Both the position numbers and the translations under genes were made by a program. Under the pieces are notes generated by a model. The model did no database searches. It saw nothing but the letters and a program-made list of their open reading frames with translations, and was not told the origin of the DNA. Of a DNA stretch of 37,999 nucleotides, positions 6,903-25,611 are shown in pieces; the first letter of the stretch is position 1; every line of letters begins with the position of its first letter. Source of the DNA: an uncultured Lachnotalea sp. (GTDB taxonomy: Bacteria > Bacillota > Clostridia > Lachnospirales > Lachnospiraceae); contig CAMSZT010000031.1 in the NCBI GenBank assembly GCA_947066815.1, positions 1 to 37,999 on the forward strand, in the 5' to 3' direction.

Positions 6903-6962
6903 AAGTGTTCTCCTTTTCGTTTCCTTTCCCGTAAAGCATTTTTTCTTAAAGGTGTTTTTCCT

Positions 6963-7961: not shown

Positions 7962-7992
7962 AGATCAAACTCCTTTTTGATAAGTGATAAGT

Positions 7993-8445
7993 TTATTTCC
8001 GGTAGGAAGCGTCCACTTCGTTGATCCTGGCGACCTTGGGAGCGGAACCGCCGCCGGCAAAGTCGCATTTTAACCAGATATCCACCAGATACTTGGCCAG
8101 CTCCACACCGATGACGCGCTCTCCCATACACATGATCTGGGCGTCGTTGCTCTTTCTGGAACGCTCCGTGGAGAAGGGGTCGTGGCAGACGGCAGCACGG
8201 ATGCCGGGCACCTTGTTGGCCGTGATGCACATGCCGATGCCGGTCCCGCATACCAGGATGCCCCGGTCGTATTCGCCTCTGGCAACGGCCTCCGCCACCT
8301 TCTGCGCCACGTCGGGATAGAGGATCACTTCGCCCTCATCCGCGCCGAAATCATGGTATTCGATGTCCTCTTTTGTGTCCAGATGTTTCATGACAGCCAC
8401 TTTCAGAGCGTAAGCAGCTTCGTCACAGCCGATTGCAATCTTCAT
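7993..8445 (-). CDS. rpiB: RpiB/LacAB-family sugar-phosphate isomerase
   Basis: The 150-residue protein has the RpiB fold signatures: IGCDEAAYALK at the start and the catalytic loop CGTGIGM with Cys66 as base. Two positions differ from classic RpiB: the usual D-H-A-G becomes D-E-A-A (Glu9), and the active-site His-Asn-(D/N)-A segment is SNDAQ (Ser99). Both changes suggest a substrate other than ribose-5-phosphate. In tetritol pathways RpiB relatives isomerise erythrulose-4-phosphate to erythrose-4-phosphate, a plausible role beside DhaK/DhaL. The ribosome binding site is weak, and the start is fixed mainly by the conserved MKIAIGCD beginning. Confidence 0.88.
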   Translation of the reverse strand: MKIAIGCDEAAYALKVAVMKHLDTKEDIEYHDFGADEGEVILYPDVAQKVAEAVARGEYDRGILVCGTGIGMCITANKVPGIRAAVCHDPFSTERSRKSNDAQIMCMGERVIGVELAKYLVDIWLKCDFAGGGSAPKVARINEVDASYRK

Positions 8446-11390: not shown

Positions 11391-12086
11391 ATGAAAGAGA
11401 TACAGAGGATATCGATCACAGATGCGGTTGTAGAACGTGTGAAGGGGCTGATTGAATCCGGAGAGTGTGCGCCGGGGCAGAAGCTTCCCACAGAAGCAAG
11501 GCTGTGCGAGATGCTCGGCGTCAGCCGGACCAGTGTGCGGGAAGCTTTCCGCGTACTCCAGGCCCTGGGGTATGTTGACATCAAAGCCGGAAAAGGCGCT
11601 TTTGCGGCGGAGAAGAGGCCGGAGCCCGGGGAAAAGACGCCTTGGTATGAGGATGATAATGCCAAGTTTTCCGATTTTATGGAAGTCCGTTATGCGGTGG
11701 AGCCCCTGGGGGTGCGTCTGGCAGTGGAGCGGGCGTCAGAGCAGGAGATCGCCGGTCTTGCCGAGATCCATGCCTCCTTTGTGGCGGCCAATACGGGCCA
11801 CGACATGGCCAGGCTCATCATGCTGGATGAGCTTTTTCACACAAAGATCATGTCCTGTACCCAAAATCCTCTGCTGATCAATATCAACAAACAGCTCATT
11901 GGCAGCTTCCGCATATACCGGGGAGAGTCCTTTGTGGACAGCGAGGTGTACGGAAATGCGGTGATCCCCCATGAACGGCTCCTGGAGTGCTTTGAGAGGC
12001 ACGACCCGGAGCGGGCAGTCCTGGAAATGCAGCGTCATCTGGATATCACCAATAAAGACATGCTGCATCTCCACAAAAGGCAGTAG
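11391..12086 (+). CDS. FadR-subfamily GntR regulator (FCD domain), copy 1
   Basis: Residues 1-70 are a winged helix (ISITDAVVERVKGLIESG, LPTEARLCEMLGVSRTSVRE), with the wing GYVDIKAGKGAF. Residues about 85-225 are an FCD ligand-binding domain whose metal-binding Asp and His are visible in LDELFHTKIM, the His of IPHERLLE and the His of MQRHLD. ATG 11391 is chosen because the paralogue at 24913 begins in the same way (MK-I-R-SITDAVVE); the ribosome binding site is distant. FCD regulators usually sense sugar acids or organic acids. It is convergent with the regulator at 12093, only six bases between stops. It may control the divergent sugar operon at 10682 or the catabolic locus. Confidence 0.9.
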   Translation: MKEIQRISITDAVVERVKGLIESGECAPGQKLPTEARLCEMLGVSRTSVREAFRVLQALGYVDIKAGKGAFAAEKRPEPGEKTPWYEDDNAKFSDFMEVRYAVEPLGVRLAVERASEQEIAGLAEIHASFVAANTGHDMARLIMLDELFHTKIMSCTQNPLLININKQLIGSFRIYRGESFVDSEVYGNAVIPHERLLECFERHDPERAVLEMQRHLDITNKDMLHLHKRQ

Positions 12087-12092
12087 CGCCGT

Positions 12093-12806
12093 CTATCCGG
12101 CCGGGTGGGGCTGTTTCATGATCCGTTCCATATCGATCAGGGAGTTTTCCATGTGCTCTGTCATAAGGCGGATCCCGGCAGCCGGATCCCGGCTCAAAAA
12201 GGTATCGATGAGCTTCTGATGAGAGACGATGGCGCGCTTGATGTTTCCCCTGATAGTGAAAGTCTGAGCGCGGTAGTCGATCAGACATTCGGAGATGGTC
12301 TTTTCGATCTTGATCAGAAGCCCGTTTTTGGTGATGGCGGCGATCTTGTGGTGGAATTCCTGGTCATAGAAGGCCATGCCGGCCTGTTTTCCGGCGGAGG
12401 CATCCTGGATGAAGGAGGCCTGGATCTTTTCCAGGGCGGCAATGTCCTTGTCGGAGGCGCGCTCGATGGCCAGGCGGATCGCCATGGTCTCGATGGCGGA
12501 CCGGACTTCCATGTAGTCCGAGAGGGTTTTGGCATTCTGCTTAAACCAGGAGATCACATCATTCTGCCTGTTCTCATCGGGGAAGCCGATGAAATAAACC
12601 CCCTTTCCGCGGCGGACCTCCAGGATCCCGAGGGCCTGCATCATCCGGTAGGCCTCCCGGACGGTGGAGCGTCCGACGCCGAACATTTCACAGACTTCTT
12701 TTTCGGTAGGCATCTTATTGTCGGAGGCCAGATTCTGTTCTTTGATATACTCCGTCAAATTATTCATTACCTGTTCTACGATAGGAATGCGTTCGATCGG
12801 TTTCAT
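12093..12806 (-). CDS. FadR-subfamily GntR regulator (FCD domain), copy 2, likely regulon repressor
   Basis: The 237-residue protein has a winged helix (KMPTEKEVCEMFGVGRSTVRE, wing RRGKGVYFI) and an FCD domain (YMEVRSAIETMAIRLAIERA; Asp/His in YDQEFHHKI; His in VSHQKLI and TEHMEN). It differs clearly from the two copies at 11391 and 24913, which resemble each other more. It is divergent from the Ldh-family gene and shares with it an intergenic region containing one copy of the GACAAYA element. That makes it the best candidate for the protein binding all five elements (inference). Its own start is preceded by AAAGGGGGA and a pair of CAAAGTCAACA repeats. Confidence 0.9.
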   Translation of the reverse strand: MKPIERIPIVEQVMNNLTEYIKEQNLASDNKMPTEKEVCEMFGVGRSTVREAYRMMQALGILEVRRGKGVYFIGFPDENRQNDVISWFKQNAKTLSDYMEVRSAIETMAIRLAIERASDKDIAALEKIQASFIQDASAGKQAGMAFYDQEFHHKIAAITKNGLLIKIEKTISECLIDYRAQTFTIRGNIKRAIVSHQKLIDTFLSRDPAAGIRLMTEHMENSLIDMERIMKQPHPAG

Positions 12807-12820
12807 AAAATCCCCCTTTC

Positions 12821-12845
12821 CAAAGTCAACAAAACAAAGTCAACA
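12821..12845. repeat. Direct repeat CAAAGTCAACA x2 upstream of FadR copy 2
   Basis: Two identical 11-base words (12821-12831 and 12835-12845) are spaced 14 bases apart, 15-40 bases before the start codon of the minus-strand regulator. They may be an autoregulatory site. Confidence 0.5.
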
Positions 12846-12914
12846 GAAAATATCGCTGCCGCAGCCTGCAGAAGGCGGTGGGAAGGCATTCTGTAAAATA
12901 GCTGCAAAAAACAC

Positions 12915-12945
12915 TTGACAGGACATCAGACAATATGATTATATT
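12915..12945 (+). promoter_or_regulatory. Promoter and operator A of the Ldh-family gene
   Basis: TTGACA (12915-12920) is followed after 17-19 bases by an AT-rich -10 (ATTATAT region, 12938-12945). Between them lies operator A, GACATCAGACAATATGATT (12922-12940), with inverted TCA and TGA around GACAATA. A second possible site, ATGTCA and TGACA with an eight-base spacer, is at 12965-12983. Confidence 0.7.
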
Positions 12946-13021
12946 ATATCAGGCGTATAATCATATGTCAACGGATTCTGACACAAAGGAAACGGATCAT
13001 GGAAAAAGGAGGAGAGGTATC

Positions 13022-14110
13022 ATGGAAGGATATCGGTATTTGAGCTTTGAGAAGATGGATGCGTTCTGCCGGGAGGTTTTCCAGAAGTTAGGCATGTCGG
13101 AGAAGGACAGCGCATCCATCGCGGAGGTACTTTTGGAGAGCGATCTGATGGGGATCGAATCCCACGGGCTCCAGCGGCTGATCATGTATTACGGGGGGAT
13201 CCAGGTGGGCCGGATCGATCCGAAGGCGCAGATCCGGGTGGTGCGCGAGACACCGGTCTCTGCCCTGATCGACGGGGATGACGGATTCGGGCATGTGGCA
13301 GGGAAGATGGCCATGCAGATGGCGATCGACAAGGCGAAGCAGTCCGGCATCGGCCTGGTTCTGGTGAAAAATTCCACCCATTACGGGATCGCCGGATATT
13401 ATTCCATGATGGCGGCCAAGCAGGGAGTCCTCGGCATGTCCATGACCAATACGGAGGCTCTGGTGGTGCCCACCTTCGGGAAGACACCGATGGTCGGGAC
13501 GAACCCCATTGCCGTGACGATGCCGGCAAAGCCCTATCCCTTCCATGTGGATATGGCGACCAGTGTGGTGCCGGCGGGAAAAATGGAGGTTTACAACAAA
13601 AAGGGCCTCTCGGTCCCGGAGGGCTGGATCGTGAACGGTGAGGGCGCGGTCACCACAGACCCCGGCGAATTCATCGAGATCAGAAAGAACAAGACGGACG
13701 GCGGCCTTCTGCCTCTGGGCGGGGAGGGCGAGCTGCACAGCGGCCATAAGGGCTACGCCCTGGGTGTTATCGTGGAGCTTCTCACGGCGGTGCTTGGCGG
13801 CGGCCACACCAGCAACCATGTGCGGGCCGTCCCGACCGTCGAGAAATGCTGCCATATGTTCCTGGCGGTCGATTATGAGATCTTCGGCGATAAGGAGGAG
13901 ATCGAGCAGGGGATGAGCACTTACATGGACGAGCTCAGGAACTCCAACAAGGCGGCGGGCCATGACCGGATCTACACCCACGGGGAAAAGGAACTGAGCA
14001 ATTATGAGAATGTCCGCAAAAACGGCGTGAAGGTCAACCAGAAGACCTATGAGGAGCTGCTCGACATCTGCAGGAAGCTGGGCGCGGACGAGGCGTATTA
14101 CTTCGGATAG
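13022..14110 (+). CDS. Ldh_2-family NAD(P)-dependent oxidoreductase (malate/lactate dehydrogenase type)
   Basis: The 362-residue protein belongs to the malate/L-lactate dehydrogenase-like family (YlbC, AllD, ComC, YiaK), which reduces 2-oxo acids or oxidises 2-hydroxy acids with NAD(P). Family signs are the N-terminal helical part with LMGIESHGL (His48 region), the NSTHYGIAGYY stretch, MSMTNTEALVVP, and GTNPIAVTMPA in the cofactor domain. I chose ATG 13022, with AAAAGGAGGAG before it, over an upstream in-frame ATG at 12935 that lies inside the promoter. It is driven from operator A and ended by a strong terminator. In the regulon it would interconvert a hydroxy acid and its oxo acid; substrates of this family include malate, ureidoglycolate, sulfolactate and diketogulonate. 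Confidence 0.87.
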   Translation: MEGYRYLSFEKMDAFCREVFQKLGMSEKDSASIAEVLLESDLMGIESHGLQRLIMYYGGIQVGRIDPKAQIRVVRETPVSALIDGDDGFGHVAGKMAMQMAIDKAKQSGIGLVLVKNSTHYGIAGYYSMMAAKQGVLGMSMTNTEALVVPTFGKTPMVGTNPIAVTMPAKPYPFHVDMATSVVPAGKMEVYNKKGLSVPEGWIVNGEGAVTTDPGEFIEIRKNKTDGGLLPLGGEGELHSGHKGYALGVIVELLTAVLGGGHTSNHVRAVPTVEKCCHMFLAVDYEIFGDKEEIEQGMSTYMDELRNSNKAAGHDRIYTHGEKELSNYENVRKNGVKVNQKTYEELLDICRKLGADEAYYFG

Positions 14111-14182
14111 GCATCAGACGGGCTGCCGGCAGCAGGAGCCGGGGTGGTAAGAACTGACAGACAGACAACGGACAGGCAACAG

Positions 14183-14223
14183 AAGGCCCCGCCTCTGCGG
14201 ATCACCGGCAGAGGCGGGGCCTT
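14183..14223. terminator. Strong bidirectional terminator
   Basis: A 16-bp stem (14183-14198 with 14208-14223, AAGGCCCCGCC arm) is followed by TTTT on the plus strand and flanked by A residues on the other side. It separates the convergent Ldh-family and malic enzyme genes. Confidence 0.85.
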
Positions 14224-14293
14224 TTATGGAGTACTGCTTTTTGCAAATGGCAGTTTTGCAAAACGAAGGAAAAGGATCCGGGCAGCCGGTTTA

Positions 14294-15469
14294 TCAGAGC
14301 CTGGCGACGCCGGTTTCCCTGGCAGCCTTTGCCACGGCGGCGGCCACCGTTTTCCCGACCCTGGGGTCGAAGGCCTTGGGGATGATATAGTCCTCCGACA
14401 ATTCTTCTTCGGAGATCAACCCGGCCAGCGCGTAGGCGGCGGCCAGCTTCATCTGGTCGTTGATATCCTTAGCCCGCACGTCAAAGGCGCCGCGGAAGAC
14501 GCCGGGGAATGCCAGGACATTGTTGATCTGGTTGGGATAGTCGCTCCTGCCGGTGGAGACCACCCTGGCGCCGCCGGCCTTCGCGTCGTCCGGGAAGATC
14601 TCCGGAGTAGGGTTCGCGCAGGCGAAGACGATGGCGTCCTTTTTCATGGTCCGTACCATTTCGGTCGTGACCATGCCGGGAGCGCTGACCCCGATAAAAA
14701 CGTCGGCTCCCGTCAGCATGTCCGCGAGGCTTCCGGCCTTCTTGTGCGGGTTGGTCACCTTGGCCATCTCCTCCTTGACGGCGTTCATGCCTTCGCTGCG
14801 GCCCTCATAGATGGCGCCGTGCCGGTCGCAGAGAGTGATGTCTTTGATGCCGTCCTTTAAGAGAAGGCGGGCGATGGAGATGGCGGCGGCGCCGGCGCCG
14901 TTCATCACGACCCGGATCTCCTCCTTCTTTTTGCCCACGACTCTCAGGGCGTTGGTGAGCCCGGCCAGGGTGATGATGGCGGTCCCGTGCTGGTCATCGT
15001 GGAAGATGGGGATATCGCATTTTTCTTTTAATCTCTTTTCGATCTCGAAGCAGCGGGGGGCGGAGATATCCTCCAGGTTTACCCCGCCGAAGGAACCGGA
15101 GATCAGGTAAATGGTGTTGACGATCTCGTCTACGTCCTTGCTCTTGACGCAGAGAGGGAAGGCGTCCACATCGCCGAAGGCCTTGAACAGCACACATTTG
15201 CCCTCCATGACCGGCATGCCGGCCTCCGGGCCGATATCGCCGAGCCCCAGCACGGCGGTCCCGTCGGTCACCACCAGGCACATATTGTGGCGGCGGGTCA
15301 GCTCATAGCTTTTTTCCACGTCCTTCTGGATTTCCAGGCAGGGGGCGGCGACACCGGGGGTGTAGGCGAGAGACAGGTCATCCTTTGTCTCCACGGGGAC
15401 GGTGGCCGTCACTTCGATCTTTCCCTTCCATTCGCCGTGAAGGCGCAGGGATTCTTTTGCGTAGTCCAT
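14294..15469 (-). CDS. Malic enzyme, NAD(P)-dependent, short bacterial form
   Basis: The 391-residue protein is a bacterial malic enzyme without the phosphotransacetylase domain of MaeB. Visible active-site parts are Tyr37 (YTPGVAAP), Lys91 (MPVMEGKCVLFKAFG), the acidic metal site (LEDI at 132-135 and HDDQHGTA at 157-164) and the nucleotide fold (NGAGAAAIS). It oxidatively decarboxylates malate to pyruvate and may also act on oxaloacetate. ATG 15469 is chosen because AAGGAGGAG precedes it; the longer frame to 15529 runs through the operator. Its promoter carries operator B, so it is expressed with the other catabolic genes, probably to funnel the C4 product to pyruvate and NAD(P)H. Confidence 0.93.
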   Translation of the reverse strand: MDYAKESLRLHGEWKGKIEVTATVPVETKDDLSLAYTPGVAAPCLEIQKDVEKSYELTRRHNMCLVVTDGTAVLGLGDIGPEAGMPVMEGKCVLFKAFGDVDAFPLCVKSKDVDEIVNTIYLISGSFGGVNLEDISAPRCFEIEKRLKEKCDIPIFHDDQHGTAIITLAGLTNALRVVGKKKEEIRVVMNGAGAAAISIARLLLKDGIKDITLCDRHGAIYEGRSEGMNAVKEEMAKVTNPHKKAGSLADMLTGADVFIGVSAPGMVTTEMVRTMKKDAIVFACANPTPEIFPDDAKAGGARVVSTGRSDYPNQINNVLAFPGVFRGAFDVRAKDINDQMKLAAAYALAGLISEEELSEDYIIPKAFDPRVGKTVAAAVAKAARETGVARL

Positions 15470-15506
15470 AAGAACTCCTCCTTGAAATAAAATTTGATAC
15501 AAAGCA

Positions 15507-15557
15507 GATGTCGTATTGTCTGATGTCAATGATAAAAGAAGAATCCGTTTTTGTCAA
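15507..15557 (-). promoter_or_regulatory. Promoter and operator B of the malic enzyme gene
   Basis: On the minus strand TTGACA (15557-15552) and TATCAT (15534-15529) are 17 bases apart. Directly behind the -10 lies operator B (15527-15507), read on the minus strand as GACATCAGACAATACGAC, which would cover the transcription start. Confidence 0.8.
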
Positions 15558-15574
15558 CTGAAATATTTTGGCCC

Positions 15575-15632
15575 TTGACGGAGCGGGGAAAGTCCGTTAT
15601 ACTGAACAGAACAGATGTCAGACAACATGACA
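15575..15632 (+). promoter_or_regulatory. Promoter and operator C of the LarA-like gene
   Basis: TTGACG (15575-15580) and TATACT (15598-15603) are 17 bases apart. Operator C (15612-15632) starts near +2 and is the best palindrome of the five: ATGTCA, seven bases GACAACA, then TGACAT. It is back-to-back with the malic enzyme promoter. Confidence 0.82.
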
Positions 15633-15662
15633 TCGTAAATAAAAACAGGAGAGGGTGGAAGA

Positions 15663-16946
15663 ATGAATATTTTTGAGTCCTTGTTCCAGGAAGTGGAGGT
15701 GCCGGAGCTGATACCGGTCAGGTTCCGCCTTACGGTGGGGAAGATCCGCAGGGAGGATATCCGGCCGGCGATCGAGGCGAGCCTGGCGGAGCGGGATCTT
15801 CTGGGACGGATCCGGCCGGGATCCAGGGTGGCCGTGACGGTGGGCAGCAGGGAGATCCCCCATATGGACGAGATCGCCCGTTCTGTGGTGGAGCTCGTCA
15901 AAGAGCAGGGGGCCGAGCCGTTTCTCTTTCCGGCCATGGGAAGCCATGGAGGTGCGACCGCAGAAGGGCAGAGGGAGCTCCTGCGGGGATTCGGGATCAC
16001 GGAGGAGACCATGGGAGTGCCCATCTTGAGCTCCATGGAGACCGTCCGCATTTCCACGACCCCGGGCGGGCTCCCGGTGCACATCGACAAAAATGCCAAT
16101 GAGGCGGACTGCATCATCCCCATCGGCCGGGTGAAGCCCCACGCGGACTTCAGGGGGAAGATCGAGAGCGGGCTGATGAAAATGCTGACCATCGGCTGCG
16201 GGAAACAGTACGGCGCCAATCTCTGCCATTCCCTGGGCATGGATCATATGTCGGAGAATGTGACGGCTGTGGCGAAGGAGATCATCCGTCATAAGAACAT
16301 CCCCTTCGGCATTTCCATCATGGAGGATGCCCTCCACACCCTGTACAAGCTGACGGCTGTTCCCGGGGAGCGGATCGAGGAGGAGGAGCCGGCCCTCCTG
16401 GAGGAGGCGAAGAGCATGATCCCGGGGATCCCCTTTGAGAAGGTGGACGTGCTGGTGCTGGAGGAGATCGGGAAGGACTGCAGCGGCGCGGGGATGGATC
16501 CCAATGTGACGGGGCGGTCCCAGTCCCTCGGGATCTGGAAGCCCTTTATCGAGCGGATCGCGATCCTGAACCTCTCGGAGAAGTCCCATCACAACGGCGC
16601 CGGCGTAGGCGGCGGGGATGTGACTACCAGGCGGTTCCTGGATAAGATGGATTTTGACATCACCTATCCCAACGGGATTACCAGCCATGACCTGCAGGGG
16701 ATCAAGATTCCGGCCGTCATGCCAAACGACAGGACTGCCGTCAAGATGGCGCTGGAGACCTGCATCCACGCGGACTGCCCGGAGGGATACCGGATGGTGT
16801 GGATGAAGAACACGCTCCATCTGGATTCGTTTTTTATCTCTCCGGCCCTTTTGAAGGAGGCGGAGCAGAATCCGGATATCGAGATCGTCGGGGAGAGGAG
16901 AAAGGTTGAATTTGACGAGAACGGGAATGTGCCGGGGATCGTATAA
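15663..16946 (+). CDS. LarA-like (DUF2088/Lar_N) nickel-dependent hydroxyacid racemase homologue
   Basis: The 427-residue protein resembles the lactate-racemase N-domain family: VAVTVGSREIPHMDEI (about 57-72), PAMGSHGGATAEGQ (90-103), then GRVKPHADFRGKIESG with His/Lys/Arg residues typical of the cofactor and substrate site. Classic LarA uses a nickel pincer nucleotide made by LarB, LarC and LarE, none of which is in this window. Homologues racemise or epimerise other 2-hydroxy acids, including malate and aromatic lactates. With malic enzyme divergent and an Ldh-family enzyme nearby, a hydroxyacid racemase or epimerase role is reasonable, but catalytic residues were not checked one by one. 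Start ATG 15663 follows AGGAGAGGG. Confidence 0.75.
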   Translation: MNIFESLFQEVEVPELIPVRFRLTVGKIRREDIRPAIEASLAERDLLGRIRPGSRVAVTVGSREIPHMDEIARSVVELVKEQGAEPFLFPAMGSHGGATAEGQRELLRGFGITEETMGVPILSSMETVRISTTPGGLPVHIDKNANEADCIIPIGRVKPHADFRGKIESGLMKMLTIGCGKQYGANLCHSLGMDHMSENVTAVAKEIIRHKNIPFGISIMEDALHTLYKLTAVPGERIEEEEPALLEEAKSMIPGIPFEKVDVLVLEEIGKDCSGAGMDPNVTGRSQSLGIWKPFIERIAILNLSEKSHHNGAGVGGGDVTTRRFLDKMDFDITYPNGITSHDLQGIKIPAVMPNDRTAVKMALETCIHADCPEGYRMVWMKNTLHLDSFFISPALLKEAEQNPDIEIVGERRKVEFDENGNVPGIV

Positions 16947-16961
16947 TGCGGCTCCCTGATG

Positions 16962-17002
16962 AAAAAAGGCAGGCTCCGGGGAATGGAGTCCTGCCTTTTT
17001 TT
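16962..17002. terminator. Bidirectional terminator between LarA-like and SDR genes
   Basis: AAAAAAGGCAGG (16962-16973) pairs with CCTGCCTTTTTT (16990-17001), with further pairing TCC/GGA inside. T runs follow on both strands; the genes are convergent. Confidence 0.88.
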
Positions 17003-17045
17003 GTCCGGGACAGGATATATAGAGAAACTTTCCGGGGGAGAGCGG

Positions 17046-17816
17046 TCATTCCCAGGAATATCTGGGATTCTGGACGCAGAATTTTCCGCCGGTGATCTCG
17101 ATGTTCACACCGTTGATGTACCCGGCCCGGTCAGAGGCGAGGAATACAAGGGCATTGGCGATGTCGGAGGGGGTCCCGAGGCGGGGGAGCGGGATGTTGT
17201 CCTGCTGCTTGGTCTCCACCATCCAGTTGTCCACCTTTGCCATGGGAGTTTCGATGACTCCGGGGATGTAGGTGAGGACCCGGATCCCCATGGAGGCAAA
17301 CTCCCCGGCGAAGGAGCGGGTCAGGCTGCAGACCCCGGCCTTTGCGGCGCCGTAGGGGCCGGAGCCGGCAGCCGGGAAAAAGGACTGGAAGGAGCCGGCG
17401 TTTAAGATCACCCCGCCCCGGCCCTTCATGCGGCCGGCAGCCGCCTTGCAGCCGTAGAACACAGAGCTTAAGTTGGTGTCGATCAGCTGGCGCCATTCCT
17501 CCGCTCCGATCTCCATCATGCCCTTGTGGACCGGCATGCCTGCATTGTTGATCCATACGTCGATCTTCCCGAACCGGTCCATGACGGCGTCCGCAAAGGC
17601 CTCGACCTGAACAGGGTCGGTGACGTCGGCTCTCTGGCAGAGCACCGGATACCCCTGCTCCTCCAGCTTTCTTCCGGCCTCGTCGAGGACAGCCTGCCTG
17701 CGGCCGCAGATGGCCAGGGAGCAGCCCTCTGCGCCGAACAGGGAGGCTGTCTCAAAGCCCATTCCGGTGGCGCCGCCGGTGATGACAACGGTTTTTCCTT
17801 TCAGATTCAGATCCAT
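17046..17816 (-). CDS. Short-chain dehydrogenase/reductase (SDR)
   Basis: The 256-residue classical SDR shows TGGATGMG (13-20) for NAD(P), the NNAG motif (90-93), and the catalytic Ser142, Tyr155 and Lys159 (PYGAAKAG). An Asp-less GRR after the second strand hints at NADPH but does not prove it. It would oxidise or reduce an alcohol/keto group of the pathway compound. ATG 17816 is chosen because AAAGGAGGA precedes it; the frame extends upstream through the promoter. The gene stands alone and carries operator E over its -35 box. Confidence 0.9.
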   Translation of the reverse strand: MDLNLKGKTVVITGGATGMGFETASLFGAEGCSLAICGRRQAVLDEAGRKLEEQGYPVLCQRADVTDPVQVEAFADAVMDRFGKIDVWINNAGMPVHKGMMEIGAEEWRQLIDTNLSSVFYGCKAAAGRMKGRGGVILNAGSFQSFFPAAGSGPYGAAKAGVCSLTRSFAGEFASMGIRVLTYIPGVIETPMAKVDNWMVETKQQDNIPLPRLGTPSDIANALVFLASDRAGYINGVNIEITGGKFCVQNPRYSWE

Positions 17817-17839
17817 AAAGATTCCTCCTTTTTTGTTGC

Positions 17840-17877
17840 AGTATACCACGAAAATACAAGTATGACAATATGATATC
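17840..17877 (-). promoter_or_regulatory. Promoter and operator E of the SDR gene
   Basis: On the minus strand TTGTCA (17868-17863) and TATACT (17845-17840) are 17 bases apart. The element GTATGACAATATGATATC (17860-17877, plus strand) overlaps the -35. It keeps the core GACAATA and the right TGA half but not the left TCA half. Confidence 0.68.
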
Positions 17878-17997
17878 ATAAGAATGGACAAACATAAAAC
17901 TAGAAAGGGAAACAGCCCTAAATCCGGTAATTGTCACAAGAAAGAGTCTATGGATATGTGGAAAATAGACAAAAAAGAAAAAGATGCCGTGAAAAAG

Positions 17998-18052
17998 TTG
18001 ACAGTATCGATGACGCATGATAGTATAATAACATGACGTCAGACAATAATAC
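17998..18052 (+). promoter_or_regulatory. Promoter and operator D of the aldolase-transporter operon
   Basis: TTGACA (17998-18003) is followed by TAGTAT (18021-18026) after 17 bases, overlapping a TATAAT at 18024. Operator D, GACGTCAGACAATAATAC (18035-18052), lies at the transcription start. It has the TCA half and the core but a poor right half. Confidence 0.75.
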
Positions 18053-18103
18053 ACAAATCTGGTATGACTGACGGACAAAACGACCAATCCAGGGAGGAAA
18101 GAA

Positions 18104-19030
18104 ATGAAAAGAACAGAATTTACACAGAAGTATGGAAAGATCCTGCTGCCGCTGGTGACCCCGTTTGATGCCAACGAGGACATCGATTACGGCAGATACG
18201 AGGAGCTGATCGAGTACCTGATCAAAAATGACCTCTGCGATTCCCTGATCGTTACGGGGACCACGGGCGAGGCTTCCCTGCTCCGCTTCGAGGAGAGGGT
18301 AAAGCTGATGGAGACGGCCGTGAAGGCTGCCGCGGGCAGAAAGCCGGTCATCGCGGGCACCGGCTGCGCTTCCACGAAGGAGACCATCGCCCTGACAAAG
18401 GAAGCGGAGAAGCTGGGGATCGACCTGTGCATGGTCGTGTGCCCCTTCTACAACAAGCCCACCATGGAGGGCGTCTATGCCCATTATAAGGCAGTGGCCG
18501 AGAGCACTTCCGCAAATATCCTGCTCTACAACATCCCGATCTTTGTGGGGATCAACATCGATCCGGCCGTTGTCGGCGAACTGGCAAAAATTGAGAATAT
18601 CATTGGTATCAAAGACGAGGCAGGTGTAAATCCTACTCAGGTAACCGATTATTTCCTGGCGACGGAGAAGGTCGATCCGGAATTTGTCGTGTTCAACGGA
18701 GACGACGTGATGCTCCTTCCCACCATCGTACAGGGAGCCATGGGGATCGTCAGCGGCGGAGCTCACATCTTCGGCCATGAGATCCGGGCGATCTTTGATG
18801 CCTTTGAGAAGGGCGACAACGCGAAGGCAAAGGAGCTGTTCGTGCCTCTTTACAGGTTCTGCAAGTCCTGCGGACAGAACGGGAGGATCCTTCCCAATTC
18901 CATCATGCGCCCTGCCATTGAGCTGGTGACCGGGATCCAGGTGGGGCCGGCGAGAAGCCCTCTGGCTCCGATCACAGAGGAGGAGAAGGCAGTCCTTGTG
19001 GATGTATTGAAAGAGGTTGGCAAACTTTGA
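18104..19030 (+). CDS. DHDPS/NAL-family Schiff-base aldolase or dehydratase
   Basis: The 308-residue protein is a class I lyase of the DapA/NanA family. GTTGE (52-56) binds the carboxylate of the oxo acid, Tyr142 (LLYNIP) is the catalytic tyrosine, and Lys170 (IGIKDEAG) forms the Schiff base. The family includes dihydrodipicolinate synthase, N-acetylneuraminate lyase, 2-keto-3-deoxygluconate aldolase and 4-hydroxy-2-oxoglutarate aldolase. As first gene of a catabolic operon with a transporter, under operator D, it is most likely a catabolic aldolase or dehydratase giving pyruvate, not the lysine-pathway enzyme. AGGGAGGAAAG precedes the ATG. Confidence 0.87.
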   Translation: MKRTEFTQKYGKILLPLVTPFDANEDIDYGRYEELIEYLIKNDLCDSLIVTGTTGEASLLRFEERVKLMETAVKAAAGRKPVIAGTGCASTKETIALTKEAEKLGIDLCMVVCPFYNKPTMEGVYAHYKAVAESTSANILLYNIPIFVGINIDPAVVGELAKIENIIGIKDEAGVNPTQVTDYFLATEKVDPEFVVFNGDDVMLLPTIVQGAMGIVSGGAHIFGHEIRAIFDAFEKGDNAKAKELFVPLYRFCKSCGQNGRILPNSIMRPAIELVTGIQVGPARSPLAPITEEEKAVLVDVLKEVGKL

Positions 19031-19083
19031 CCGATCTTTTTTGAACTGATATGTTAAACAATTTAGAAAGGGAGGTATTTTAC

Positions 19084-20343
19084 ATGAAGCGTTTCACAAG
19101 TTTATTTCTGGCACTGGTGATGGCCGTGTCCATGCTTGCCGGCTGCGGCGGCTCAGATAAGAAGAAGGAGACCGAGGCCCCGAAAGAGACTGCGGAGGCA
19201 GAAAAGAAGGAGGAGCAGCAGGATACGAAGGCGGAGACCGAGGCCCAGAAGGAGAGCGAGAGCGCGGCAGCGGCAGACGACGGTGACACCATCACCTTCG
19301 GTTTAAGCTGCGCCATCACCGGCAATTTCCCTCTGGCCGGCGAGCGGACCCTTCAGGGCGTGCAGATGGCCGTGGACGAGATCAATGCGGCCGGCGGCGT
19401 CCTTGGAAAGAAGCTGGCTTTCATCTATGAGGACGACGGAAACGATCCGACACAGGCGGTGACCGTGGTGACGAAGCTCCTCAACGAGGATATCTGCGGG
19501 CTGATCGGCCCCCACACGACCACCAACTACCTGGCTGTGCAGGAGCTGGCAGGCCAGGCAGAGATCCCTTATATCACGGGCGGTTCCGGGACAAAGATCG
19601 CGGCTGCCGGAAATAAGTACGGATTCCAGTGCCGTCCCTCCGATGGCATGAATGGTATCGTCGCGGCTGATTTCGCGGTCAAGGAGCTGGGCGCAAAGAA
19701 GGTCGGCGTATTCTTCAACAACAACGACTTTGGCGTCGGCGGACGTGATGCCGTGACGGCAGAGCTTGACAAGCTGCAGGTAGAGTATGTCACCTTGGGA
19801 CACAATTCCGGTGATACGGACATGACCAGCCAGCTGATGCAGTTCATCTCGGAGGGGATCGACACTATGATCCTCTGGACCGATGACGCGGAGGATGTGG
19901 TCGTTGCCCGCCAGGCCTATGAGCTTGGCCTGGAGGCCGATGTGATCACCTCTGCCGGCGTTGTCATGGAGCAGGTGCTCAGCCAGATGGAGCCGGAGTA
20001 TGTTGAGGGCTGGTATTCCGTCACAGACTTCGTTCCCGCCAACGACGATCCGGTCGTGGCCAAGTTCGTGGAGGACTTCAAGGCGCTCTACGACATCGAG
20101 CCGGAGCTCTATGCCTCCGCGTATTACGGAGCGGTGAAATTCCTGGCAGCTGCCATCGAGAAGGCCGGATCCGACGATCCCAAGGCGATCCGCGATGCCA
20201 TGGCCGAGTTAAAGGATGTTGAGGGCCCTACCGGAACCTTGAGCTGCGCTTCCGACAATACGCTGATCCACAGCTGTGTCGTGACGCAGATCACGGATCT
20301 GAAGCCCGCGGTGGTCAACACGGTTACCGCCGACTTTGAGTAA
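19084..20343 (+). CDS. LIV-type ABC transporter substrate-binding lipoprotein
   Basis: The 419-residue protein has a lipoprotein signal (lipobox MLAGC, Cys21), an acidic/lysine-rich linker (about 25-72) and a type I periplasmic-binding fold of the LivJ/LivK class, beginning at ITFGLSCAITGNFPLAGE. Further signs are GVQMAVDEINAAGGVLGKKL and GLIGPHTTTN. ATG 19084 with GGGAGG upstream is preferred to an earlier in-frame ATG at 19051. Proteins of this class bind branched-chain amino acids, but many bind aromatic or organic acids and amides. The surrounding enzymes favour an organic acid here. The 54-base gap to the aldolase gene indicates co-transcription. Confidence 0.92.
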   Translation: MKRFTSLFLALVMAVSMLAGCGGSDKKKETEAPKETAEAEKKEEQQDTKAETEAQKESESAAAADDGDTITFGLSCAITGNFPLAGERTLQGVQMAVDEINAAGGVLGKKLAFIYEDDGNDPTQAVTVVTKLLNEDICGLIGPHTTTNYLAVQELAGQAEIPYITGGSGTKIAAAGNKYGFQCRPSDGMNGIVAADFAVKELGAKKVGVFFNNNDFGVGGRDAVTAELDKLQVEYVTLGHNSGDTDMTSQLMQFISEGIDTMILWTDDAEDVVVARQAYELGLEADVITSAGVVMEQVLSQMEPEYVEGWYSVTDFVPANDDPVVAKFVEDFKALYDIEPELYASAYYGAVKFLAAAIEKAGSDDPKAIRDAMAELKDVEGPTGTLSCASDNTLIHSCVVTQITDLKPAVVNTVTADFE

Positions 20344-20400
20344 GAGGGTTATTTCAACGGGAGTCTGGCAAAAATCTGAGTGACAGATATATAAATGAAG

Positions 20401-20439
20401 TGGCACGGAGTGTTCGGGAGGAATCCGGCTTCCGTGCCA
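20401..20439 (+). terminator. Hairpin between binding-protein and permease genes
   Basis: TGGCACGGA (20401-20409) pairs with TCCGTGCCA (20431-20439), followed by TTTTC. Such a hairpin behind a binding-protein gene usually cuts part of the transcripts or protects the upstream mRNA, so that more binding protein than permease is made. Confidence 0.6.
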
Positions 20440-20469
20440 TTTTCAGCAAAAGCAGGAGGGAGAGGTTTC

Positions 20470-21342
20470 ATGTCATTTGCGATGATCATGCAGCTTATCA
20501 TAAGCGGCATTGCATTGGGCTTTATCTATTCGATGGTCTCCATTGAATACACCCTGATCTTCAACTCGACAGGGCTTTTAAACTTCAGCCATGACAAGCT
20601 GATCATGCTCGGCGCCTATGCGTTTGCCGGCCAGTTTGTCCTCCGGATGGGCTGCGGCTATGTGGTGGCGACCATTGCCACGGTCTTATCCATGTTCATC
20701 ACCGGCATCCTGATCGCAAAGGGGATCTTTAACCCTTTGAGAAATATGGCATCGCCGATCTTTGCGGTGATCGGCACGGTCATCATGGGAAGGATCATCA
20801 AGGAACTCTGCCGGATCATCTGGGGGGCGACAGCCTTCAATATCCCCGGATTCATGAAGGGAACCTTCAAATTCGGCAGCATCGTGATTACCAGGGCGAA
20901 CACCTATATCATCATTGTCGCCGTCCTGCTTGTGATCGCGCTGCAGTTATATTTCAACCATACGAAATCCGGCAAGGCCATGCACTGCGTACAGCAGAAT
21001 AAGACGGCGGCGACCCTGATGGGGATCAATGTCTCACAGAATATCAATATCACCATCGGGATCAGTGCGGTGGTCTGCTCCATCATCGGGATCCTGGTCA
21101 TATCCCTGTTTTCCGTCAGTCTTACCATGACGAACATGATCGGGATCAAGGGATTTGCGGCAGGCGTGATCGGCGGCTTCGGATATTTCCCCGGCTGTAT
21201 CGTCGGCGGAGTGCTAATCGGCATCCTGGAAAACTTAAGTACGCTGGTGATCCCTTCGATCTATAAAGACTGCGTGGCGTTTGTCCTTATGATCGTGTTC
21301 CTTCTGGTGCAGCCGAAGGGTATCCTTGGGCATAAGAAATAG
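20470..21342 (+). CDS. livH: LIV-type ABC transporter permease, LivH class
   Basis: The 290-residue protein is a hydrophobic multi-span membrane protein of the LivH class: the N-terminal QLIISGIALGFIYSMVSIEY, then TGLLNFSHDKLIMLGAY, correspond to the conserved first spans. The cytoplasmic coupling part (MHCVQQNKTAATLMGIN) contacts the ATPases. ATG 20470 is preceded by GGAGGGAGAGG; the longer frame from 20395 crosses the hairpin. Thirteen bases separate it from livM. Confidence 0.9.
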   Translation: MSFAMIMQLIISGIALGFIYSMVSIEYTLIFNSTGLLNFSHDKLIMLGAYAFAGQFVLRMGCGYVVATIATVLSMFITGILIAKGIFNPLRNMASPIFAVIGTVIMGRIIKELCRIIWGATAFNIPGFMKGTFKFGSIVITRANTYIIIVAVLLVIALQLYFNHTKSGKAMHCVQQNKTAATLMGINVSQNINITIGISAVVCSIIGILVISLFSVSLTMTNMIGIKGFAAGVIGGFGYFPGCIVGGVLIGILENLSTLVIPSIYKDCVAFVLMIVFLLVQPKGILGHKK

Positions 21343-21354
21343 AGGGAGGATGGC

Positions 21355-22374
21355 ATGAAAGAAAAAAAGAATGTAAAGATCGCTCTGCTCGCCGCTTTGT
21401 TCGTGGGACTGATCGTATTCCCCATCGTGGATAAGAATACCTATCATCAGCTGGCGCTGGCGCAGACGCTTGTGAATGTTATCATTGTTCTGGGACTGAA
21501 TTTCATTACGGGCCTCACCGGGCAGATGAACCTGGGGACTGCGGGCATCATGGCGCTCGGCGCCTATTCCGGCCAGCTCATGGTACAGAAGCTGGGGATG
21601 GCCACGATCCTCACGATCCCTGTGGCGATCCTCATGGGCGTGATCATCGGCTATGCCCTGGGCTACCCTTCCCTGCGGCTGAAGGGGGTCTACCTGTCCC
21701 TCACGACCATCGGCTTCAGCGAGATCGTCCGGCTTGTCATCACAAACTGGGCGGATTTCACCGGAGGGACCACCGGTGTCCAGAATATCCCGGCATTAAA
21801 CCTGTTCGGGCTTAAATTGGACGCCACCTGGAAGCTGACGGTCTTTCTCGTGATCATCTGCGCGGTCCTGGTATTTACCGCATATCGGATCGTGAATTCC
21901 AAATACGGGCGCGTCTTCAAGGCGATCCGGGACAACATCGAGGCCGTGGAGGCCTGCGGGATCGACGTTGCCGGCCTGAAGATCAAAGCCTTTACCCTGG
22001 CGGCCATTTTCGGATGCATCGGCGGCTGCTTTTACGGCTTCCTGATGACCTACCTGAACCCGACCCAGTTTACCCAGGATCTCTCGGCCAATTATCTGCT
22101 GATGATGATGTTCGGCGGGATCGGCTCCGTTCCGGGCAGCGTGATCGGGGCGACGGCAGTCACGCTCCTGCCTGAGTTCCTCCGGTTCACAAAGGAATAT
22201 TACTGGCTGATCTTCGGGATCATCACCCTCCTGTTCGCGATCTTCCTTCCCTATGGGTTCATTTCCCTGTTCCAGAAGGAAAAGAGGGAGGAGGCAGGTA
22301 TCTTCAAGATACTGAACGACCGGAAGGGGAAACGGAAAAACGCGGGAGTGCCGAAGTCTGGAGGGATGAGATAA
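21355..22374 (+). CDS. livM: LIV-type ABC transporter permease, LivM class
   Basis: The 339-residue permease carries the LivM pattern: NFITGLTGQMNLGTAGIMAL near the start, SLTTIGFSEIVRLV in the middle and the coupling helix RVFKAIRDNIEAVEACGID. About eight to ten membrane spans are apparent, with a basic tail (about 305-339). GGGAGGATG upstream provides the ribosome binding site. Its stop is one base before livG. Confidence 0.9.
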   Translation: MKEKKNVKIALLAALFVGLIVFPIVDKNTYHQLALAQTLVNVIIVLGLNFITGLTGQMNLGTAGIMALGAYSGQLMVQKLGMATILTIPVAILMGVIIGYALGYPSLRLKGVYLSLTTIGFSEIVRLVITNWADFTGGTTGVQNIPALNLFGLKLDATWKLTVFLVIICAVLVFTAYRIVNSKYGRVFKAIRDNIEAVEACGIDVAGLKIKAFTLAAIFGCIGGCFYGFLMTYLNPTQFTQDLSANYLLMMMFGGIGSVPGSVIGATAVTLLPEFLRFTKEYYWLIFGIITLLFAIFLPYGFISLFQKEKREEAGIFKILNDRKGKRKNAGVPKSGGMR

Positions 22375-22375
22375 A

Positions 22376-23182
22376 ATGGCAGAGGAAAGAAAAAGCGTAC
22401 TCAGACTGGAAAATATCACGAAGAAGTTTCAGGGCCTGACGGCGGTGGACGACGTTTCCTTTGATATGAAGGAACGCAGCATTTACGCGCTGATCGGCCC
22501 GAACGGAGCGGGGAAGACCACGACGGTCAACATGATCACGGGGGTATTCCCTCCGACAACAGGGAAGATTTATTACCGGGATCGATGCATCAACGGGATG
22601 AAGACCTTTGAGATCGCCCGCCTCGGCATCGGACGGACCTTCCAGAACCTGAAGCTGTTCAACTCCATGAGCGTACTGGAGAACCTGATGATCGGCGGCC
22701 ATGAGATGACGAAGATCGGCCTGGTGAACTTCTGCTTCAATTTCGGCGGCAGCAAAAAAGAGGAGATCCTGCTCAGGGAACGGGCCGAGGAGGTCATGGA
22801 ATACCTGGGGATCCAGGATCTGGCAAAACGGAATGTAAAAAATCTTTCCTATGGCCGCCAGAAGATCGTGGAACTGGGACGGGCCATGATGACAGGTCCG
22901 AAGCTGCTCCTCCTGGACGAGCCGGCGGCCGGGCTGATCCCGTCGGAGCGGAAGGAATTCGTCGATATCGTCCTCAGGATGTTCGAGGAGGGGATGGATA
23001 TTTTCCTCATCGAGCACAATATGGATGTGGTCATGAATGTGAGTACCTATATCACGGTGCTGAATTTCGGCTCCCGGATCGCGGAGGGGACTCCCAAGGA
23101 GATCCAGAGCGATCCGGAGGTCATCAAGGCATATCTCGGCGACAAGTATCAGGAGATCGCCGCGAAAGAGAGGAGGGACTGA
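22376..23182 (+). CDS. livG: LIV-type ABC transporter ATPase, LivG class
   Basis: The 268-residue ATPase shows Walker A GPNGAGKT (41-48), a signature variant LSYGRQKIVE and Walker B LLLLDEPAAGL. The LivG-type insertion between Walker A and the signature (FNSMSVLENLMIGGHE and the following segment) is present. Together with LivF it powers the importer at the inner face of the membrane. It is separated by one base from both livM and livF, showing a tightly packed operon. Confidence 0.93.
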   Translation: MAEERKSVLRLENITKKFQGLTAVDDVSFDMKERSIYALIGPNGAGKTTTVNMITGVFPPTTGKIYYRDRCINGMKTFEIARLGIGRTFQNLKLFNSMSVLENLMIGGHEMTKIGLVNFCFNFGGSKKEEILLRERAEEVMEYLGIQDLAKRNVKNLSYGRQKIVELGRAMMTGPKLLLLDEPAAGLIPSERKEFVDIVLRMFEEGMDIFLIEHNMDVVMNVSTYITVLNFGSRIAEGTPKEIQSDPEVIKAYLGDKYQEIAAKERRD

Positions 23183-23183
23183 C

Positions 23184-23894
23184 ATGCTGAAGGTATCGGA
23201 TATCAATGTTTTCTACGGGAAGGTCCAGGCTCTCTTTGACGTCTCCATGGAGGTCGGCGAGAATGAGATCGTCTCTGTGATCGGGGCGAACGGCGCGGGG
23301 AAGACGACCCTGATGAAGAGTATCATCGGGATCAATAAGACCCAGACCGGCGGCATCGAGTTTAACGGAAAGAACATCACCAACCAGAAGCCCCACATCA
23401 GCATTTACGACGGGATCGTGTATGTGCCGGAGGGCCGGGAGGTGTTTCCGGAGATGTCCGTGGAGATCAATCTGGAGATGGGGGCATTCAGTAAAAAATA
23501 TTCTTCCGCCCAGATGCAGGAGCACAAGGAGGAGGTCTACCAGCTCTTTCCGAGGCTTAAGGAGCGGGCAAAGCAGAAGGCGGGGACGTTGTCCGGCGGG
23601 GAACAGCAGATGCTTGCCATCGGCCGCGGGATGATGAGCGATCCGGCGCTGATCCTGTTCGACGAGCCCTCCCTGGGGCTGGCGCCGGTGATCGTGGACG
23701 AGATGTTTGACGCGATCGTAGAGATCAATAAATTAAAGAACACTCCGGTCATCATCGTGGAGCAGAATGCGTTCATGGCCATGTCGATCTCCAACCGGAC
23801 TTACGTGCTGGAGAACGGGAAGATCTCCCACAGCGGCCTGAGCAGCGAGCTCCTGGAAAGCCCGGAGATCAAGAAAGCCTATCTGGGAGGATAA
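23184..23894 (+). CDS. livF: LIV-type ABC transporter ATPase, LivF class
   Basis: The 236-residue ATPase has Walker A GANGAGKT (34-41), the LivF-typical YVPEGREVFPEMSVEINLEMG, signature LSGGEQQML and Walker B LILFDEPSLGL. It pairs with LivG. The FAH-family gene follows after four bases, so import and the next enzymatic step are encoded together. Confidence 0.94.
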   Translation: MLKVSDINVFYGKVQALFDVSMEVGENEIVSVIGANGAGKTTLMKSIIGINKTQTGGIEFNGKNITNQKPHISIYDGIVYVPEGREVFPEMSVEINLEMGAFSKKYSSAQMQEHKEEVYQLFPRLKERAKQKAGTLSGGEQQMLAIGRGMMSDPALILFDEPSLGLAPVIVDEMFDAIVEINKLKNTPVIIVEQNAFMAMSISNRTYVLENGKISHSGLSSELLESPEIKKAYLGG

Positions 23895-23898: not shown

Positions 23899-24660
23899 AT
23901 GAAGCTGGTTCGGTTTATGTATCGCGGAGCGGAGGCAGCCGGGATCTTAAGGGGGGAGGAGATCGCCCTCTGCCAGGGATCCCTGTTCGGGAAGCTCACG
24001 GAGACGGGGACGATGCTCAGGGCGGCAGAGGTCCGCCTGCTCCCTCCGGTGAGGCCGGAGAAGATCCTGTGTGTCGGCCTGAATTATATGGATCATATCG
24101 TGGAATCCAAGGCAGAAAAACCGGAGGTGCCCGTGATCTTTTCCAAAGGTCCGGGGACGGTCATCGGCATGGGAGACGAGATCCGCTATCCGGTCAAAAT
24201 GTCAGAGCGGGTGGACTATGAGGGAGAGCTGGCGGTGGTCATCGGGAAGACGGCGAAGGATGTGGGGGAGGGGGAGGCGGCAGCCCATATCCTGGGCTAC
24301 ACCTGTGCCAATGACGTGACGGCCAGGGACCTGCAGACGGATACCAATCAGTGGACGGTCGCCAAGGGCTTTGACACCTTCTGTCCGCTGGGGCCCTGCA
24401 TTGCCACGGATGTGGATCCCGGTAGTCTGGAGATCCGCCTGACCCTGAACGGTGAGGAGCGGCAGCACTCCAATACACGGCACCTTTTGTTTACGCCGGC
24501 TTATCTGGTCAGCTACCTCTCCCACATTTTCGAGCTGCATCCGGGGGATGTGATCCTGACCGGGACGCCGGAGGGGATCGGTCCCATGGAGATCGGGGAC
24601 ACGGTCAAGGTAGAGATCGAGGGGATCGGCGCGCTGACGAATGTGGTGGGGAAACGATAA
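23899..24660 (+). CDS. Fumarylacetoacetate hydrolase (FAH)-family enzyme
   Basis: The 253-residue protein has a short N-terminal domain and a complete FAH fold: GLNYMDHI (60-67), metal ligands Glu108 and Glu110 (DYEGELAVV) and Asp139 (ANDVTARDLQ), the lid WTVAKGFDTFCPLGP and the end motif TGTPEGIG. Members hydrolyse acylpyruvates, decarboxylate or tautomerise oxaloacetate, or act as ureidoglycolate lyase or sugar-acid dehydratase-like enzymes. With malic enzyme and a pyruvate-type aldolase in the same regulon, an acylpyruvate hydrolase or oxaloacetate-directed role is attractive, but the substrate is not readable. Last gene of the operon that begins at 18104. Confidence 0.88.
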   Translation: MKLVRFMYRGAEAAGILRGEEIALCQGSLFGKLTETGTMLRAAEVRLLPPVRPEKILCVGLNYMDHIVESKAEKPEVPVIFSKGPGTVIGMGDEIRYPVKMSERVDYEGELAVVIGKTAKDVGEGEAAAHILGYTCANDVTARDLQTDTNQWTVAKGFDTFCPLGPCIATDVDPGSLEIRLTLNGEERQHSNTRHLLFTPAYLVSYLSHIFELHPGDVILTGTPEGIGPMEIGDTVKVEIEGIGALTNVVGKR

Positions 24661-24912: not shown

Positions 24913-25611
24913 ATGAAAGCAATACATAGAGTATCCATTACGGATGCAGTCGTGGAAAGCATCAAAGAATCGATCGAGTCAGGGGAATACCAGGTGGGGG
25001 CGAAGCTTCCCACGGAGGCAGGCCTGTGCGCGGAAATGAAGGTCAGCAGGACCAGCGTCAGGGAGGCGATCCGTGTCCTGCAGGCTCTGGGCTATATCAC
25101 CATCAAGCCGGGAAAGGGAGCGTTTGTCTCGGAGCAGGCGCTCCTTCCGAAAAACGCAAAGCCCTGGTATGAGGCGGAGGGGGCGGAATATTCGGATTTC
25201 ATGGAGGTCCGGTTTGTCCTGGAAACACTGGCCGTGCGCCTGGCCGTGGAACGGGCCACGGCGCTCCAGGTGGAGGAGCTGGCGGAGGTCCACCATTCCT
25301 TCTGCGAGGTCAGCAAAAAGCGGGACATGACGAAGCTGATCATCCTGGACGAGACCTTCCATACAAAGATCATGTCCTATACCGGGAATCCGCTCCTCGT
25401 CAATATCAACCGACAGCTGCTGGACAGTTTCCGCAAGTACCGGGGGGAATCCTTCACCAACGAACAGGTCTACAACAATGCGGTGGAGCCCCACGGGAGG
25501 ATCCTGGAATGCTTTAAGCGCCGGGATGCCGAGGGTGCGGTGCGGGAGATGGAGCACCATCTGGAGGTCACCCGCCAGGATATGATAAAGATCCACAAGG
25601 GTTCACTTTAA
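24913..25611 (+). CDS. FadR-subfamily GntR regulator (FCD domain), copy 3
   Basis: The 232-residue regulator is a close paralogue of the one at 11391. Both begin with MK-x-I-x-R, then SITDAVVE, share SRTSVREA and RVLQALGY in the DNA-binding helices, and share SDFMEVR, FHTKIMS and YRGESF in the FCD domain, with hardly any gaps. This points to a duplication or to two regulators sensing similar ligands. Metal-site residues are seen in LDETFHTKIM, the His of EPHGRILE and the His of MEHHLE. It stands alone behind the transporter operon. Its own leader lacks the GACAAYA element, suggesting that it controls a different set or itself. Confidence 0.9.
   Translation: MKAIHRVSITDAVVESIKESIESGEYQVGAKLPTEAGLCAEMKVSRTSVREAIRVLQALGYITIKPGKGAFVSEQALLPKNAKPWYEAEGAEYSDFMEVRFVLETLAVRLAVERATALQVEELAEVHHSFCEVSKKRDMTKLIILDETFHTKIMSYTGNPLLVNINRQLLDSFRKYRGESFTNEQVYNNAVEPHGRILECFKRRDAEGAVREMEHHLEVTRQDMIKIHKGSL

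Follow-up and report, generated by a model that had tools for sequence, protein, structure and literature searches.

The DNA analysed in this work, hereafter the window, is the 37,999-nucleotide contig C31 of an uncultured Lachnotalea sp. from the family Lachnospiraceae; the whole genome searched comprised 3.4 Mb. The window carries a gene cluster whose promoters bear five related short sites, candidate operators for R2, one of three regulators of the FCD/GntR type encoded there. R2 (12093..12806, minus strand; 237 aa), the proposed repressor, was composed of an N-terminal GntR winged helix (Pfam PF00392, 60.5 bits, cut-off 27) and a C-terminal FCD domain (PF07729, 87 bits, cut-off 24.3), the two domains that define the FadR subfamily. 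D148, H152, H196 and H218 of R2 fall at the positions expected of an FCD metal site, and the Asp and three His residues of this putative site were kept in all four aligned R2 orthologues.

The cluster continues with an Ldh2-family dehydrogenase of the malate/lactate/sulfolactate type (13001..14110, plus strand; Pfam Ldh_2, 403.9 bits), for which none of five NCBIfam matches exceeded its own cut-off, and a short-form malic enzyme of 391 aa (14294..15469, minus; Pfam malic and Malic_M). The LarA-like enzyme (15663..16946, plus) scored above the cut-off of the NCBIfam model ‘nickel pincer cofactor-dependent isomerase, group 22’ (494.3 against 400 bits), and a LarC-family gene was present elsewhere in the genome. 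Beyond a short-chain dehydrogenase (SDR; 17046..17816, minus) lies an operon whose first gene encodes a DapA/NanA-family protein (18104..19030, plus; Pfam DHDPS, 249.7 bits), with the five genes of a LIV-type ATP-binding cassette transporter (binding protein, two permeases and two ATPases; 19051..23894, plus). The product of the first gene had been labelled an aldolase, a name that is provisional because the protein passed the NCBIfam dapA cut-off (232.5 against 206.15 bits). An FAH-family protein (23899..24660, plus; best NCBIfam score 194.2 bits, under the cut-off of 276.4) and the second FCD/GntR regulator, R3 (24913..25611, plus), a possible co-regulator at site 5, follow. The third regulator, R1 (11391..12086, plus), is 61 % identical to R3 and converges on R2; none of the sites was attributed to it. 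The closest named relatives, judged by the LarA-like protein, were the Lachnospiraceae metagenome-assembled genome L032 (93 %) and Candidatus Paralachnospira avium L033 (85 %).

All five sites reported in the initial annotation were recovered in place, and are given here in a 23-bp frame. Site 1 (GGACATCAGACAATATGATTATA, 12921..12943, plus) covered about -7 to +15 of a promoter directed towards R2 (12943..12971, minus; TTGACA-N17-TATAAT with TG before the -10) and, at -28 to -6, the spacer and -10 of the Ldh2 promoter (12915..12942, plus; TTGACA-N16-GATTAT), which matched the consensus at 12 and 10 of 12 bases, respectively, in the window, L032 and L033 alike. Site 2 (TGACATCAGACAATACGACATCT, 15506..15528, minus) lay at about -6 to +16 of the malic enzyme promoter (15529..15557, minus; TTGACA-N17-TATCAT) and site 3 (AGATGTCAGACAACATGACATCG, 15613..15635, plus) at about +3 to +25 of the promoter of the LarA-like gene (15575..15603, plus; TTGACG-N17-TATACT). 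Site 4 (ACAAGTATGACAATATGATATCA, 17856..17878, plus) was placed over the -35 of the SDR promoter (17840..17868, minus; TTGTCA-N17-TATACT), at about -45 to -23, and site 5 (TGACGTCAGACAATAATACACAA, 18034..18056, plus), which is of a mixed type, at about +1 to +23 of the promoter of the DapA-like/LIV operon (17998..18026, plus; TTGACA-N17-TAGTAT). A protein bound at any of these places could be expected to obstruct RNA polymerase.

The promoter search was confined to 70–105 bp round each site and the best match was taken. The -35 and -10 hexamers matched at 10–12 of 12 bases, with a spacing of 16–18, for every one of the six promoters in each of the three genomes (18 of 18 pairs), and the region 12800–18110 contained eight promoter-like matches compared with 2.3 (standard deviation 1.4) in shuffles. 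The overlap of sites with correctly spaced promoters that had been claimed held at every site, but the promoters number six and not five; the one directed towards R2 was absent from the earlier count and is supported by the sequence as a sixth target. The conserved GTCAAC to the right of site 1 was considered as a second operator and was ruled out, being the -35 of this promoter.

Seventeen sites from four genomes gave the 23-mer consensus AGACATCAGACAATATGATnTnA, in which T6 and GACAA (columns 9–13) were invariant. The TCA before and YGA after the core were correctly described for three of the window sites, and the clean palindrome ATGTCA-N7-TGACAT was found at 15615–15633, its sole exact occurrence in the genome. 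As a marker, the motif held up at the length of the 23-bp site, which was specific, but not as the seven-base core GACAAYA, which was common inside genes. The window contained 15 copies of the core where 4.9 would be expected, a count reached in none of 100 shuffles; it proves little alone, because 10 of these copies were genic and five intergenic (the intergenic share of the window being 14.7 % by a rough gene table), and it was dropped as stand-alone evidence. With a 14-base consensus, the whole genome gave two exact matches, both in the cluster, two with one mismatch (one in the cluster) and 43 with two mismatches (two in the cluster), whilst up to three mismatches gave 636 places, compared with 408 for the reversed control pattern. 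A 23-bp matrix was then trained with one promoter left out, either on four window sites or on twelve sites from the three genomes. In all 10 tests the held-out site ranked fifth, directly behind the four window training sites and above every non-site in the window, with margins of 0.3 to 11.3 bits; the smallest arose when the three-genome matrix was tested on site 4, which scored 16.1 bits against 15.8. Because likeness had guided the original choice of the five sites, this test was not blind and gives support rather than proof. The top non-site in the window (12708–12730, minus; 13.0 bits) lay within the R2 gene and was taken as chance.

Better evidence is the keeping of these places in the relatives. 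The order of the cluster from R2 to R3 was retained in L032 and L033, in which R1 was not beside it, and all five sites occurred at the same promoters. Between the window and L032, 98 of 115 bases were identical within the sites and 380 of 559 in the rest of the three intergenic regions; the corresponding counts for L033 were 83 of 115 and 262 of 559, with only the Ldh2 end of its long R2–Ldh2 gap entered. At site 1, 22 of 23 bases were unchanged in both relatives. The position of each site relative to its promoter was nearly constant across the three genomes, being the same for the R2-ward, Ldh2, SDR and DapA promoters and shifting to -3 to +19 at the malic enzyme promoter of L033 and to +4 to +26 at the LarA-like promoter of L032. 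Distances between sites were not constant (107, 109 and 103 bp between sites 2 and 3, and 178, 203 and 153 bp between sites 4 and 5, in the window, L032 and L033, respectively), which makes independent sites the likelier reading, and looping between phased pairs of sites was set aside on this ground.

Whole genomes were scanned with a sequence-only model built from the 17 sites, a partly circular procedure in which 150 first-look candidates were scored per genome. At E ≤ 10, the present genome gave six matches among these candidates, namely the five cluster sites (14.6–20.5 bits) and one of 12.1 bits; in the L032 genome the five cluster sites came first, followed by one match at 13.5 bits, and in the L033 genome the only five matches at E ≤ 10 were the cluster sites (14.1–22.5 bits). 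In the genome scan that had been proposed as a check, the five cluster sites thus ranked above all other candidates scored, the model having been trained in part on these same sites. This ranking and the conserved geometry support the earlier proposal of one shared regulon with repression from promoter-overlapping sites. A few matches fell within long open frames (C9:46006 in this genome, C48:86843 in the L032 genome and C99:24961 in the genome G703 described below). The 12.1-bit match (C48:16978; L125 2479) lay about 20 bp before a major facilitator superfamily transporter gene, a possible distant target. More distant LarA loci (L034–L051) were rejected as carriers of the site: the best of the matches listed for them, at 17.0 bits in three Paenibacillus loci (L035, L036 and L039), fell inside a LivG-like match.

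Close matches to R2 were rare. At E ≤ 1e-40 they were found in five of 299 genomes of the family, including its own, the other four being 36–38 % identical, and at E ≤ 1e-38 in eight of 392 genomes of the order, again including its own, six at 38–39 % and one, G703, at 51 %. A search of G703 with R3 at E ≤ 1e-30 returned the R2 orthologue and nothing else. A motif of 25.6 bits lay 40 bp before this R2 gene, a second (24.9 bits; L074 7090–7112) between DapA and a divergent lrgB-type gene (7376–8233), and a third (18.9 bits) about 60 bp before DapA. The promoter towards the lrgB-type gene, read by eye as TTGACA-N18-AATAAT, had the motif over its -35 and spacer; LrgAB has been linked to pyruvate uptake. 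The 17-site model gave eight matches in G703, three of them in the R2 cluster (19.1, 17.0 and 12.9 bits), the rest comprising one of 14.7 bits inside a gene and weak matches of 11.2–12.7 bits. Because G703 combines R2 and the motif with no R1- or R3-like paralogue at E ≤ 1e-30, R2 is the best candidate for the binding protein. R1 appears not to be needed, since an R3 query at E ≤ 1e-30 found no third match besides R2 and R3 in the L032 and L033 genomes.

A putative operator on the regulator's own promoter was seen as site 1 in three genomes and as the motif before R2 in G703, and R2 is probably autoregulated, since site 1 keeps its place at the start region of the R2-ward promoter in the window, L032 and L033. 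Among 11 further regulator loci, including that of G703, the best match was within 250 bp of the regulator in eight (L074, L075, L076, L058–L061 and L080), and in L077, L078 and L079 it lay 49–79 bp before a DapA-family match, 1.5–2.7 kb from the regulator. The five sites are likely to be operators of one local regulon read by R2, the protein that had been put forward as the repressor; G703, the conserved sites, the own-promoter site and a trend linking a helix residue of the regulator with the motif all favour this assignment.

The trend emerged from an alignment of 18 regulators, in which one recognition-helix residue was compared, presumably the equivalent of FadR Thr46, as placed by the RxxxRE pattern and the FadR sequence. 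In the numbering of PMC4494728 this is position 39, which that survey associates with the bases flanking the motif centre. Ser was present in six regulators (four R2 orthologues, G024 and G590), and the best site was of the form TCAGACAA in five and CTGACAA in one (G024). Another six had Thr (G104, G214, G015 and G340) or Gly (G033 and G037), with TCATACAA as the best site. Sites of the R2 orthologues mostly read TCAGACAA, the three SDR sites reading TATGACAA, and the second site of G214 was TCGTACAA. Against such a code, G692 and G637 (both Gly) had only weak sites, the best in G637 being of the GGACAA type, and R3 of L033 has Ser and no known target. The association of Ser with TCAGACAA and of Thr or Gly with TCATACAA amounts to about five independent contrasts after kinship and is suggestive only.

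It is unlikely that the sites are read mainly by R3 instead of R2, or by the two proteins jointly, with site 5 common to both. R3 does remain beside the cluster in both relatives, and R1/R3-type proteins lie 0.3–4 kb from DapA-family genes in four other genomes (G104, G214, G015 and G340), where sites of the TCATACAAT type precede the DapA-family genes. Furthermore, a model built from 11 such other-genome sites gave site 5 as the top match in this genome (E = 0.96), in that of L032 (E = 0.065) and in that of L033 (E = 0.87). E values of 0.06–1 are weak; the lead of site 5 in three genomes, outside the training set, is nevertheless an independent sign that it is an operator. In the window and L032, site 5 joins a left half of the R2-type motif to a right half, AATAATAC, of the R1/R3-type motif, and R3 may also read this site. 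Set against R3 as the general reader are G703, which has sites and R2 with no other R3-like gene at E ≤ 1e-30, and the absence of any of the nine best window matrix matches from the region before R3. In addition, the R3 helix has Thr in the window and L032 (Ser in L033), and its wing has KP (SP in L033) where R2 has RR. Conceivably, R2 (Ser47) and R3 (Thr in the window) read the neighbouring codes TCAGACAA and TCATACAA, so that the uptake operon, through a conserved hybrid site 5, would answer to both and the enzyme genes to R2 alone, an idea we advance tentatively. In the four family genomes (L077, L058, L078 and L079) the TCATACAAT-type sites preceded paired DapA-family genes that have an R1/R3-type regulator nearby, and a sister regulon is likely there.

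A regulator encoded elsewhere, with R2 merely adjoining the sites, is improbable to a greater degree. Candidates exist, in that an R2 query gave 25 first-look GntR-like matches in the genome, of which nine were scored; against them, four genomes carry the motif at R2 or its promoter or immediately ahead of one of the two, and the motif accompanies R2 in G703 and tends to change its base together with the helix residue. That the likeness of the sites reflects shared promoter hexamers or chance, with no regulator involved, has a negligible probability: the GACAA core resembles a -35, is common alone and overlaps the -35 at site 4, but sites 1, 2, 3 and 5 do not reach the -35 of the promoters they serve and retain their core in three genomes, and the leave-out ranking in 10 of 10 tests speaks against it.

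The operator may not be the short palindrome that had been described: the site spanned 21–23 bp and had two possible dyad axes 4 bp apart. A dyad score as high as that centred on column 12 was reached in five of 2000 column shuffles, that on column 8 in 39 and the best at any centre in 53; the FadR-type frame GT-N3-AC, also present in the AlkR operator discussed below, is centred on column 8 and the long dyad on column 12. R2 may bind as a dimer on column 8 with an extra right half-box, an arrangement that PMC4494728 reports for many FadR-subfamily sites, or as a dimer on column 12.

R2 resembles the FadR-subfamily local repressors LldR, PdhR and GlcC (PMC4494728) in its winged helix and FCD domain and in having adjoining operons for oxidized substrates as its probable targets, as well as in the use of one site for two divergent promoters and in the ACAA half-box of TKGT/ACMA. 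Compared with TKGT-N2/3-ACMA, ACAA was present in all five window sites, the left box contained GT in three and AT in two, and the preceding TK in none. The present system departs from them in a left half-box that is mostly ANRT rather than TKGT, in a block of 21–23 bp with a TGAY-like box 8–11 bp to the right of the FadR-type centre, and in five operators on six promoters of one cluster. Footprinting located the FCD regulator AlkR on ATTGTCAGACAAT (PMC12042122); its helix and wing carry the arginine pairs R45/R49 and R66/R67. Site 3 contains TGTCAGACAA, and R46, R50, R65 and R66 of R2 are the likely equivalents of those arginines; AlkR differs in its alkane genes, acyl-CoA effector and full short palindrome, the R2 sites being longer and less symmetric. 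NanR belongs to the FadR subfamily and has a similar length, and its NCBIfam model PRK03837 was the top-scoring one for R2, R1 and R3; R2 scored 114.1 bits, under the cut-off of 260, and its consensus lacks direct repeats of the TGGTATAW type given for NanR in PMC4494728.

The sites, the promoter-like sequences, their conservation and the co-occurrence with R2 are seen directly in the sequence; from these we infer that R2 binds the operators, that the sign of control is repression and that an inducer relieves it. In the absence of inducer, each operator would be occupied by R2, as a dimer or larger assembly, and RNA polymerase would be blocked, at the start region of the R2-ward, malic enzyme, LarA-like and DapA/LIV promoters, at the spacer and -10 of the Ldh2 promoter and at the -35 of the SDR promoter. 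As site 1 serves two divergent promoters, R2 would hold down its own production. On binding to the FCD domain, a small carboxylic acid of the pathway would free R2, so that uptake by the LIV transporter and breakdown would be turned on together.

Several observations weigh against this model. The promoters are consensus matches with +1 assumed 7 nt after the -10, and autoregulation in L033 would require read-through of the roughly 0.8 kb of additional DNA that separates the promoter from R2. L032 and L033 are close relatives, so that the 15 sites are not 15 independent events. In a control scan, 20 genomes of the family gave 51 matches at E ≤ 1 in 19 of the 20, the best at 17.7 bits and eight at 14.1 bits or above; 19 of these genomes lacked an R2 match at E ≤ 1e-40 or 1e-38, and G392 was tested with the R3 query only. 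The weakest cluster sites (14.1–14.6 bits) are therefore not outstanding by score alone. By this control, lone matches are noise (about 0.4 per genome at 14.1 bits or above), and the signal lies in five within 5.1 kb. Two R2-like loci of one genus (L075 and L080; 39 % identity) had best matches of only 11.5 and 13.3 bits, and G590 (Ser) had both site types, the best being TCAGACAA together with two of TCATACAA. The retention of R3 in L032 and L033, the occurrence of R3 relatives near a similar DapA gene in four genomes, and the ambiguous dyad axis also count on this side.

The gene content suggests a C3–C5 2-hydroxy or 2-oxo acid such as malate as the substrate class, with a pathway to pyruvate or oxaloacetate. 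LarA-type enzymes invert 2-hydroxy acids, and the presence of a malic enzyme next door has been read as pointing to malate racemase (PMC7583248). ‘Group 22’ was not found in the main text of PMC7583248, PMC11770544 or PMC12611868, the passages of which name no substrate for it.

Whilst the kind of system, a local repressor of the FCD/FadR type, is known, the proposed regulon itself appears new within the literature searched, and new here are the sixth promoter, the test provided by G703, the paralogue motif and the mixed site 5. The 2015 survey (PMC4494728) lists one Clostridia protein among 634 of the FadR subfamily and gives little coverage to Lachnospiraceae-type bacteria, for which the present sites offer a testable operator and regulator from a Lachnospiraceae-like gut bacterium. 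They also place a nickel-pincer LarA enzyme of group 22 in one unit with a malic enzyme, a DapA-family protein and a transporter, and suggest that a single helix residue goes with one operator base.

Elsewhere in the window, an rve integrase-core protein with HTH_21 (391–1359), insertion-sequence-like, was encoded near the contig end. Genes with DAK2 and DAK1 domains of the dihydroxyacetone-kinase type (6264–8445) adjoin an RpiB-type isomerase, forming another small sugar/polyol unit.

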